A DNA stretch of 64,000 bases from Pontibacter roseus DSM 17521 (GTDB lineage: Bacteria > Bacteroidota > Bacteroidia > Cytophagales > Hymenobacteraceae): positions 124,001 through 188,000 of the forward strand of contig NZ_KB890761.1 in NCBI RefSeq assembly GCF_000373265.1, read 5' to 3'. The position numbers and the translations under genes were made by a program. Every line of letters begins with the position of its first letter. Positions within the stretch are counted from its first letter, which is position 1. Under the pieces are notes generated by a model. The model worked only from the letters and a program-made list of their open reading frames with translations. It did no database searches and was not told where the DNA came from. Of the stretch, positions 1 to 64,000 are shown one piece after another.

Positions 1-54
1 GACCTTACCTACAAGCGCGACGGCGACAACGTACAAATCGACTCAAAACAGTAG
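1..54 (+). CDS. 3' end of an unidentified CDS
   Basis: The first 54 bases read without a stop as 17 residues (beginning DLTYKRDGD, ending DSKQ) and close with TAG at 52-54. A strong rho-independent terminator follows 25 bases later, which supports this being the real end of a gene that begins outside the window. The fragment is hydrophilic and too short to assign to a family. Confidence 0.7.
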   Translation, partial: DLTYKRDGDNVQIDSKQ

Positions 55-78
55 CCCGACCAGCACTTTGCTCCCGAA

Positions 79-110
79 GCCCTCACCTGAAACAGGTGAG
101 GGCTTTTTTT
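79..110 (+). terminator. Rho-independent terminator
   Basis: An 11-bp perfect stem (79-89 with 93-103, loop AAA) is followed at once by seven T residues. It ends the partial gene at the left edge. Confidence 0.9.
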
Positions 111-112
111 AC

Positions 113-120
113 TATATTTG
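113..120 (+). promoter_or_regulatory. Possible -7 promoter element (TATATTTG)
   Basis: TATATTTG matches the Bacteroidetes -7 consensus TAnnTTTG and lies between the terminator at 79-110 and the metalloprotease start at 238. No TTTG is present at the usual -33 distance because the terminator occupies that position, so this is a weak call. Confidence 0.3.
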
Positions 121-237
121 GGTTTAAACTTAACACACCCCTGCTTGTTCTTTTGCGTAAGAAGACGATACACCAATTTTGACCAATATTTCCATACAAC
201 ACGCTACCAGAAAAACAGTCACCTCGCACCATACTAT

Positions 238-62013: not shown

Positions 62014-62045
62014 AGAGGCCTGACTCATTTCTGAATCAGGCCTCT
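62014..62045. terminator. Bidirectional terminator between PepSY gene and tRNA
   Basis: A perfect 10-bp stem (62014-62023 with 62036-62045) with a 12-base loop, followed on the plus strand by CTTTT. On the minus strand it is followed by a T-rich stretch. It can end both the plus-strand operon and the minus-strand tRNA. Confidence 0.85.
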
Positions 62046-62051
62046 CTTTTG

Positions 62052-62124
62052 TAGCGGGAACAGGACTCGAACCTGTGACCTTTGGGTTATGAGCCCAACG
62101 AGCTACCAACTGCTCCATCCCGCA
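62052..62124 (-). tRNA. tRNA-Met(CAT), probably initiator tRNA-fMet
   Basis: A 73-base cloverleaf on the minus strand, anticodon CAT. The acceptor stem pairs at six positions (G2-C71 to A7-T66) but positions 1 and 72 are T and T and do not pair, as required of initiator tRNAs. The anticodon stem ends in three G-C pairs (GGGCTCATAACCC), also an initiator hallmark, and A11 pairs with T24. The T-loop reads TTCGAGT. The 3' CCA is not encoded, so it is added afterwards. Confidence 0.88.
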
Positions 62125-62207
62125 CTGTTATTGTGTTACAAAAGTAGTATAAACATTCGTACCATGCAAGCTATACGTACCAAAAAAAGCAAAAGATTTG
62201 CTGATTT

Positions 62208-63989
62208 CTAAAATTTGCTGGTTATCCCGAAGTGTATCTTCGAGTATTTCAAGGACATAGGCTGTTGCTCCGAATGCCCGACGGAATACACCAACTGAAA
62301 AATACCTGCGCCGGTGCTGAAGCTGATACCGCCACCCACCCCCAGTGGCAGCCCCTCCGCCTGCGAGGCCTCCAAATCGCTGCGGTAGTAGCCCTGGTCA
62401 TAGAACAACAGCACATAGGAGTCTTCAGCCGTGAACAGGCGGTACTCCAACGTGCCCACACCGTAGGTGGAGGCATAAAAGAAGTACTCGTCAAAGCCCC
62501 GCAAAGAATTCAATCCACCCAGCCGGTACATGTCATTGAGGAAAATCTGGTCGTTGAGGAGGGCTTCTCCCCGCAGCCTAGCCAGCAGCGCGCTGTTCTT
62601 GCCAACCCGGAAAAAGTTCTCCAGCCGCAGGCCCAGGCTCAGCTGTGTCGTATTCACCTCCAACGTATCGTAAAACTCCTTCTCCAGCTCCGGGTTGCGC
62701 AACAGTTTTTTGCGGCCGGCCGCCAGCTGCAGCTCCACCAGCCGTCCTTTCCGGGGGAAGTAGAAATCGTCGAGGTTGTTCCAGAGGTAGTTCAGGCCGT
62801 AGGTATTGGTGCGGGCATCGGCCAGGTCCAGCGCCTTCAGGCTCTGCGGGTTGGCAGAAGAGAGGATGCGGGAGTTGCGCCACTCCGTAAACACGCTGAA
62901 GCGGCCGTACCGGATGGTGTTGTAGGCCAGTTGCACCCGCGGCTGCACCGTGATGAAGGAAGAATCCTGCTTGAGCAGGCCAAAGCGTGTGCCAAGCTCA
63001 AAAGGCGTTCCGAAGAGGTTGGGGTGCAGGTATTCGCCGTTGAGTATGACGGAGCCCCTGTTCACGCGCCGCCACTGCAGGCCCAGTTGCTTGCCGCTGC
63101 CCCTGATGTTGCGGATGTTCATGTTGGCCTCGCCCGTGATGAGCAGTTTGTTGTCGCTGCGGCCCGGGTCGGGCAGGAAGCCCACCACGCCATCCAGCTG
63201 GTTGGCCTGCCGGTCCTCCAGAAAATAAATCACCCGGGCTTTGTCACGGGCGAACTGCACCTGCGGCGGGCGCACCACTTTAATGTAAGGCAGGGCCGTG
63301 AGCATGCGCTGCGAGGCCAGCACCTGGTCCTGGTTGTAAGGCTGGCCAGGGTATAGCTGCAGGTAGCGCATCAGGAACTTAGCCTGCGTCTTGCTGCCGC
63401 CCATTACCTGCACCGTGTCATAAGTCACCACAAAGGCTTTCTCCACCATCAAGGCAGCGGATATCTTATTGTCTTTGATTTGGATGGAGTCCAGCCAGAC
63501 GGAGGCGAAGGGATAGCCGTTGCGCTCGGCGTAGTCGAGGATGCGCTGCTGCAGCTTCGCATACTCGGCTGGCTTGAAAGGCACGTTGCGATAGAACTTC
63601 TCCCGGAAGCCTGACTCCACCAGTACGCCTTCGCTCAGGTTGCCGTTGCGCAGTTCGGCCCAGTCGTAGCGGTTGCCGATGTGCAGTTTCACGTGGAGCG
63701 TATCGTTGCGCTTGTAAGAGCTGTCAGCAGAGGCGAGGAGGTAGGCATCCTGATGCAGCCGCTGTACCAGCGCTTGTACTTCTTTGCGTGCCTCTACTGT
63801 GTCAGGGACTTGAGTACGGTAGGTATACTGCCGCAGCACCTGTCGGTCGGGGCCAGTGGCGTATACCCTGAGCGCTGCCTTCGCCTGCGGCACCACCGGC
63901 TGTGGCACCGGCGGCTGTGGCTTCTCCTGCGCCTGCACCAGCGGCAGCCACACGAATAAGCACCAGACTAAGGCTGCGATTCTGTACAT
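62208..63989 (-). CDS. BamA/TamA family outer-membrane protein
   Basis: 593 residues with a signal peptide (IAALVWCLFVWLPLVQAQ). Two or three POTRA-like repeats lie in the first half (YDTVQVMGGSKTQAKFLMRYLQLYPGQPYNQDQVLASQRMLTALPYIKVV). The C-terminal ~320 residues form an Omp85-type barrel, with the L6-type motif GGLNSLRGFDEY and a final SLKYSKIHFGITSKF. It may insert outer-membrane proteins or move a substrate. It is shorter than BamA (~800), so it is more likely a TamA-like or specialised member. Only the C-terminal end (62208) and the N-terminus at 63989 are in view, and the gene is complete. Confidence 0.88.
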   Translation of the reverse strand: MYRIAALVWCLFVWLPLVQAQEKPQPPVPQPVVPQAKAALRVYATGPDRQVLRQYTYRTQVPDTVEARKEVQALVQRLHQDAYLLASADSSYKRNDTLHVKLHIGNRYDWAELRNGNLSEGVLVESGFREKFYRNVPFKPAEYAKLQQRILDYAERNGYPFASVWLDSIQIKDNKISAALMVEKAFVVTYDTVQVMGGSKTQAKFLMRYLQLYPGQPYNQDQVLASQRMLTALPYIKVVRPPQVQFARDKARVIYFLEDRQANQLDGVVGFLPDPGRSDNKLLITGEANMNIRNIRGSGKQLGLQWRRVNRGSVILNGEYLHPNLFGTPFELGTRFGLLKQDSSFITVQPRVQLAYNTIRYGRFSVFTEWRNSRILSSANPQSLKALDLADARTNTYGLNYLWNNLDDFYFPRKGRLVELQLAAGRKKLLRNPELEKEFYDTLEVNTTQLSLGLRLENFFRVGKNSALLARLRGEALLNDQIFLNDMYRLGGLNSLRGFDEYFFYASTYGVGTLEYRLFTAEDSYVLLFYDQGYYRSDLEASQAEGLPLGVGGGISFSTGAGIFQLVYSVGHSEQQPMSLKYSKIHFGITSKF

Positions 63990-64000
63990 TTGTGTTTTGT

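Follow-up and report, generated by a model that had tools for sequence, protein, structure and literature searches.

Lineage-specific spellings of a highly repeated octamer in Pontibacter: a candidate DNA uptake sequence of Bacteroidota

Uptake signal sequences of the Pasteurellaceae serve a pilus-based system, have AT-rich flanks and occur on either strand, with a density of about one copy per kb. For the Neisseriaceae, the parts of PMC3630211 drawn on here describe dialects of the DNA uptake sequence (DUS) with 943–5,918 copies per genome, one genome carrying two of them. Within Bacteroidota, the relevant passages of PMC7965970 report that Riemerella columbina prefers its own DNA and that candidate words there are A/T-rich, mostly runs of A. 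Sections of PMC8459023 list ComEC, DprA, ComF, RecA, a helix-hairpin-helix (HHH) protein, and surface and other proteins unlike known machinery as requirements for transformation of R. anatipestifer, and describe the outer-membrane step of Bacteroidota transformation as poorly known. Here we analyze a 64,000-nt stretch of Pontibacter roseus DSM 17521 (contig NZ_KB890761.1; the whole stretch is referred to as the window) and an octamer repeated throughout it, AGGTATAG. On balance, our analysis leads us to read AGGTATAG as the local spelling of a self-recognition word shared across the genus, most probably a DNA uptake sequence.

The Pontibacter word resembles the Pasteurellaceae signal in its density of about one copy per kb and its presence on both strands, and differs from it in its unrelated letters and in having one biased base per flank rather than AT-rich flanks. 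With Neisseriaceae DUS, which are read by ComP on type IV pili, it shares thousands of copies, lineage-specific spellings and a core that does not vary, CTG in the DUS and TAT-R in Pontibacter. Dialects that follow phylogeny, a two-dialect genome and members lacking the word are likewise common to both, as far as the DUS are covered in those parts of PMC3630211. Unlike the DUS, which are 10–12-mers, the Pontibacter word is an 8-mer, belongs to the phylum Bacteroidota, and occurs in genomes with no convincing type IV pilus/type II secretion system (T2SS) ATPase.

A preliminary description of the window had proposed that the heptamer GGTATAG/CTATACC is over-represented. The window (GC content 55.1%) holds 104 copies on the two strands and a third-order Markov model, which fails to predict this count, expects 24.4; the excess is real and larger than had been supposed. 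The local tally for positions 4021–8040 (ten GGTATA/TATACC hexamers, eight GGTATAG/CTATACC heptamers) is exact, and the frame examples at 4124, 4970 and 18275 match the open reading frames (ORFs) and our site list. An A precedes the heptamer at 69 of the 104 sites, and AGGTATAG is found 69 times versus 7.4 expected under the same model. The repeated unit is thus AGGTATAG and not the heptamer. Enrichment persists outside the window: across the whole genome (4.58 Mb, 12 contigs) we counted 2,304 forward and 2,196 reverse copies, 4,500 in all, versus 57 + 51 = 108 for a control in which the word pattern is read backwards.

Our family sample comprised 200 genomes, 50 from Pontibacter (the window's own included) and 150 from five other genera. 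A 20-kb rpoB stretch was analyzed for each of the 50, with two further stretches for 40 of the 49 relatives and more for the window's own genome. In addition, the product of a MoxR-type gene was used as query and gave 80 named loci, 31 of them in Pontibacter, among these the 30 at the top of the list; Sabulibacter, Rufibacter and Adhaeribacter came after them. Dialects were called from k-mers over-represented relative to a third-order Markov model, together with a scan of NNN-TAT-R-V. The anchor gene and the dialects are as follows.

19465..20472, plus strand: MoxR-type ATPase gene, anchor for the named orthologous loci; window positions 9465–30472 were compared.
Dialect A: AGGTATAG; 12 of 50 genomes.
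Dialect B: AAGTATAA; 20 of 50 genomes.
Dialect C: AACTATA(G/A), that is, AACTATAG or the same word ending in A; 7 of 50 genomes, of which G058, G033 and G018 carry B too.
Dialect D: ATATATRGC; G002 alone, on 59 kb (ATA triplet 91 versus 42.6).
Dialect E: GGGTATGG/GGGTATAG, GGGTATRG; Pontibacter sp. E15-1 (L183, GC content 58%), a single 21-kb locus.
No dialect: 10 of 50 genomes, with weak traces in G117 (GGG/AGG) and G131 (AAC/AAG).

Whole-genome counts agree with the assignments of A, B and C. AGGTATAG reaches 23–79 times the reversed control in 12 of the 50 genomes, AAGTATAA 13–88 times in 20, and AACTATAG 32–51 times in five (8,208 versus 160 in G121) and 10 and 18 times in two more. Large numbers of AGGTATAG are confined to the genus, with at most 212 copies in any of the 150 genomes from the five other genera; AAGTATAA is similarly confined, reaching at most about 2.4 times control in 71 genomes outside. 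The 31 named Pontibacter MoxR loci divide into 11 A, 13 B, one C (mixed with B), one weak B, one E and four with no dialect. B and C occur together in three genomes and in the C locus L179. Because E is a single 21-kb locus and D a single genome on 59 kb, both are less secure than A, B and C. In the MoxR loci of Rufibacter/Sabulibacter and Adhaeribacter, none of the dialect words exceeds 3 copies per locus; other k-mers are enriched there, an enrichment that may be inflated as the orthologous loci were pooled.

Two side observations concern other repeated words. A 21-kb locus of Chitinophaga rupis (L207) has 11 copies of AATTACGA versus 0.4 expected and 8 of AATTCGTA versus 0.3. Three stretches of genome G105 (L029, L115 and L116; 59 kb) contain, besides AAGTATAA, 23 copies of ATAAGGAGC versus 0.5 expected, possibly a local repeat family containing the dialect word.

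The dialects share one architecture: a variable 5′ triplet, then TAT, then R, then any base but T. They differ in the triplet, which is AGG in A, AAG in B, AAC in C and, less securely, ATA in D and GGG in E. Single-substitution spectra of A and B are alike, with A and less often G at position 7, anything but T at position 8, and one clearly biased base on each flank. The first six positions are strict in both, with one exception, G being accepted at the first position of A (GGGTATAG, 3.3 times expected); the enriched variants in dialect A are AGGTATGG, AGGTATAA, AGGTATAC and GGGTATAG. On an rpoB+rpoC tree (quick search, supported by the Shimodaira–Hasegawa-like approximate likelihood ratio test, SH-aLRT, only), A forms one clade of 12 genomes (SH-aLRT 100), and C together with the mixed genomes one clade of 7 (SH-aLRT 100). 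B is present in both deep clades, and the tree suggests that it is probably ancestral. The motif-less state takes five changes on this tree; starred branches force four of these.

In the ten motif-less genomes, AAGTATAA stands at 1.3–4.8 times control. This is no clear proof of relics, because dialect-A genomes show the same (2.2 times in G000). Motif-less genomes are also larger (median 5.8 versus 4.6 Mb; 10 versus 40 genomes, Mann–Whitney p = 5e-6). On the starred branches there are four tree-independent pairs (sign test p = 0.125–0.25), the motif-less member being larger wherever size class differs; with four such pairs, the size difference is a hint.

To compare sites, we projected them by blastn between named MoxR loci, using all ordered pairs of 12 A and 13 B loci; these projections are not independent of one another. 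Neighboring 8-mers served as controls, genes were called by longest ORF, and reversed-word controls gave 11 and 0 projections, too few for use. From A to A, 68.3% of sites (n = 3,053) carried the identical 8-mer, versus 18.5% of flanking 8-mers; from B to B, the values were 56.1% (n = 3,707) and 16.5%. Coding sites with unchanged peptide were identical in 80.2% of 1,773 cases for A (30.9% of 9,749 controls) and 75.8% of 1,713 for B (30.6% of 9,759). Intergenic sites behaved similarly, at 67.9% of 368 for A (14.2% of 1,198 controls) and 58.6% of 456 for B (20.0% of 1,230). Thus, within dialects, sites are conserved between related genomes far beyond controls, and the excess at same-peptide and intergenic sites indicates that the word itself is kept. 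The compared region of the window has 26 AGGTATAG sites. For 21 of them one or more other A loci could be aligned, and 3 of the 21 are kept in none.

Between dialects, A and B words often replace one another in place. The 1,260 A sites projected onto B loci met AAGTATAA 160 times, AAGTATAG 116 times, AAGTATAC 32 times and unchanged AGGTATAG 83 times (6.6%; flanking identity 10.9%). In the other direction, 1,863 B sites met AGGTATAG 160 times, AGGTATAA 76 times and AAGTATAA 53 times (2.8%; flanking identity 8.3%). C sites on B loci (213) gave 35 AAGTATAG and 15 AAGTATAA. At A sites in B loci, identity was 11.5% of 576 where the peptide is unchanged (23.2% of 3,928 controls) and 6.0% of 67 between genes (6.4% of 219 controls). 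On motif-less loci, 2.0% of 304 A sites were identical (flanks 10.2%), with AAGTATAA at 11 of the 304, and 2.5% of 922 B sites (flanks 8.4%). Many sites align gap-free with sequence that differs by substitutions, so an origin by insertion of octamers is unsupported. One or more B loci could be aligned at 17 of the 26 window sites, and at 10 of the 17 AAGTATRV stands in one or more B loci. Individual AGGTATAG sites include:

13306..13313, plus strand: in a TldD-like gene; 10 of the 11 other dialect-A loci have the identical 8-mer, none of 13 dialect-B loci has AAGTATRV.
22443..22450, minus strand: in a gene with a two_anch domain; kept in 9 of 11 dialect-A loci, AAGTATRV in 3 of 11 dialect-B loci.
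24359..24366, minus strand: kept in 10 of 11 dialect-A loci; 7 of 10 aligned dialect-B loci have AAGTATRV in its place.
25518..25525, plus strand: kept in 9 of 11 dialect-A loci, AAGTATRV in 6 of 6 aligned dialect-B loci.
26227..26234, minus strand: kept in 8 of 11 dialect-A loci, AAGTATRV in 5 of 5 aligned dialect-B loci.
26599..26606, minus strand: kept in 7 of 11 dialect-A loci, AAGTATRV in 7 of 8 aligned dialect-B loci.

Sites lie on both strands, in genes and in gaps, as had been described. All coding frames are used except the one that creates a stop (5 of 811 A and 16 of 984 B coding sites in the pooled dialect DNA). With longest-ORF gene calls, 24.2% of A and 28.9% of B sites fall between predicted genes, which is about 10% of the DNA, a density 2.9-fold (A) and 3.6-fold (B) that in genes. 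The MoxR/Bat region is dense, with 1.57 (A) and 1.82 (B) sites per kb. Spacing is irregular (coefficient of variation 1.32 for A and 1.49 for B), and close pairs exceed expectation in every orientation, most of all in the same orientation. DUS are known for inverted pairs between genes; here, inverted pairs within 60 bp number 19 and 20 for A (13.1 expected each) and 36 and 30 for B (18.4). Use of all permitted frames, conservation at same-peptide and intergenic sites, and respelling in sister species together bear out the earlier suggestion that the word is selected or generated at the DNA level.

Two measures of strand were used, GC skew and the variation of strand counts within stretches; origins were not mapped. 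Of 707 A sites, 378 lie on the G-rich strand, as do 530 of 1,033 B sites when mixed genomes are grouped with B, and within-stretch strand preference is 0.55 (A) and 0.50 (B), i.e. there is no bias. Polar motifs, such as FtsK-orienting polar sequences (KOPS) and Chi-type words, are therefore disfavored. Among the parallels raised in the preliminary description (HIP1, uptake sequences, Chi and KOPS), dialects of uptake sequences fit best, and KOPS and Chi fit poorly. That description knew of no named function for the word; we found none either among the listed matches in open-licence full texts, nor any report there of the word or of such dialects in Bacteroidota.

A sequence-specific reader whose preference changes would be a natural cause of the dialects, their shared architecture and phylogeny, and the maintenance and exchange of sites. 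Such a reader would be a trans-acting DNA-binding protein. Imported DNA carrying the word would be preferred and would recombine into homologous places, and the word would accumulate by biased uptake (molecular drive), following any shift in reader specificity. In its full form the proposal, which we put forward tentatively and judge about evenly balanced, is that Pontibacter species recognize kindred DNA by means of an uptake-sequence system that arose independently and does not use type IV pili. Its spelling would have changed several times (two switches are well supported, and there may be up to four), dialects would act as barriers to gene exchange, and each genome would record its exchange lineage.

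The likely machine is the pilus-independent transformation route of Bacteroidota, which would combine an outer-membrane receptor, a periplasmic HHH protein and ComEC. As in Riemerella-type machinery, ComEC matches occur in all 50 genomes (disrupted in G046 and G089; a shorter frame of 561 amino acids in G121), and a periplasmic HHH_3 frame of 304–346 amino acids is open in 49 and broken in G089; the HHH tally also counts another, longer protein of 752–816 amino acids. DUF5689, a Riemerella surface domain, occurs in 22 of 50. A search for the type IV pilus/T2SS ATPase (PF00437), with 31 candidates scored in most genomes, found none convincing in the 50, only fragments covering about 30–65 of 370 positions. 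Three genomes scored barely above the cut-off (25.0–25.9 versus 24.9 bits), and the type IV pilus route was set aside. Given no convincing pilus ATPase, general ComEC and HHH, and patchy DUF5689, we propose uptake-type self-recognition by a pilus-free machine. Among the neighbors of comEC and the HHH gene in G000 we found no candidate reader; a 414-amino-acid frame near comEC, without a Pfam match, is probably spurious. As a separate observation, ComEC and the periplasmic HHH gene of G089 (L245, L246) are both hit by frame breaks and stops, which may reflect joint loss of one function.

Several observations weigh against an uptake sequence. All ten motif-less genomes have open ComEC and HHH genes, so absence of the motif does not go with absence of these genes, and loss of ComEC or HHH was rejected as its cause. 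Conversely, G046 and G089 are motif-rich with disrupted ComEC (and, in G089, a disrupted HHH gene). Neither shows clear site decay; ranked by excess over one-transition neighbors, G089 takes fourth place among the 20 B genomes, and G046 comes last among the 12 A genomes. These cases can be fitted by loss of specificity and by recent loss of competence, but they do not favor uptake over a methylation or recombination reader. Among motif-positive genomes 17 of 40 have DUF5689, among motif-less ones 5 of 10; the window's own genome lacks it, and the domain was set aside as the reader. Examination of the pilus ATPase, DUF5689 and the comEC/HHH neighbors turned up no receptor or reader protein, and in the open-licence literature we found no uptake or transformation experiment on the genus; the paper listed there concerns LexA. 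Features of the word itself also count here. Same-orientation close pairs are commoner than inverted ones (61 and 33 for A, 84 and 35 for B), and the rpoBC region is poor in sites (0.10 per kb for A and 0.30 for B, versus 1.0–1.1 elsewhere). C has no excess of G at position 7, on fewer data. E sites show no exchange, with 29 of 75 on A loci keeping GGGTATRG and AAGTATAA at 2 of 118 on B loci.

An alternative that we regard as unlikely, yet worth keeping in view, is that a lineage-specific methyltransferase recognizes the word, and that methylation-linked repair or another effect of methylation creates and keeps it; the dialects would then be changes of specificity. The model is cyanobacterial HIP1, which the passages of PMC4390886 used here describe as a highly repeated octamer, rare in some relatives or replaced in some genomes by alternate words, every one of which has a methyltransferase of its own. 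HIP words are palindromic, rich in GC and linked to methyltransferases, whereas AGGTATAG is asymmetric, not palindromic, with an AT core. Eco57I-type (PF07669) matches occur in 47 of 50 genomes; they are patchy and many are partial, with none in motif-positive G089 and one 29-bit fragment in G000. This patchiness weakens the methylation model little, as PF07669 was the sole family searched.

Somewhat less likely still, in our estimate, are binding sites of an abundant chromosome-organizing or regulatory protein with drifting specificity. Conservation and in-place exchange require only some trans-acting reader, and the higher density between genes would suit such a protein. Yet most sites are inside genes, in all permitted frames, and their spacing is irregular; moreover, the roughly five tree changes to the motif-less state suggest a dispensable function.

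We consider it improbable that the word is Chi-like, recognized by an AddAB/RecBCD-type helicase-nuclease that then switches to recombination. Chi, too, is an asymmetric, lineage-specific octamer whose letters vary between lineages, and our search, which covered AddB, found an AddB-like PDDEXK protein of 967–1,018 amino acids in all 50 genomes. The orientation of Chi follows replication, however, whereas the Pontibacter word has no strand bias and is about threefold denser between genes; the ten motif-less genomes have AddB just as the others do.

Functionless mutation bias or codon use is scarcely credible: dialect GC content loosely tracks that of the genome (GGG in a 58% locus, AAC in 43–47% stretches, with A and B overlapping), but the third-order Markov expectation is exceeded about tenfold, conservation within dialects is above same-peptide and intergenic controls, and A sites in B loci are less conserved than controls in genes and equal to them between genes.

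Neisseriaceae and Pasteurellaceae, the families whose uptake sequences are named in the literature cited here, both use type IV pili. A series of dialects in Bacteroidota would suggest that other uptake machinery, too, can give rise to biased self-recognition. This one genus has as many as five spellings, genomes that mix them and several lineages lacking the motif, and offers a natural series for site-by-site exchange of a word, and the word itself is a concrete substrate for testing Bacteroidota transformation.

Two further arrangements stand out in the window's site list:

29746..29789, no strand assigned: inverted pair at the meeting point of convergent ORFs, with AGGTATAG (plus strand) at 29746 and GGTATAG (minus strand) at 29783–29789.
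53556..53581, plus strand: four overlapping AGGTATAG copies, head-to-tail with a period of 6.

The minus-strand GGTATAG of the inverted pair overlaps the stop codon of the minus-strand ORF 29783–30598. The four-copy array sits just past the 3′ end of the minus-strand ORF 53594–54682.

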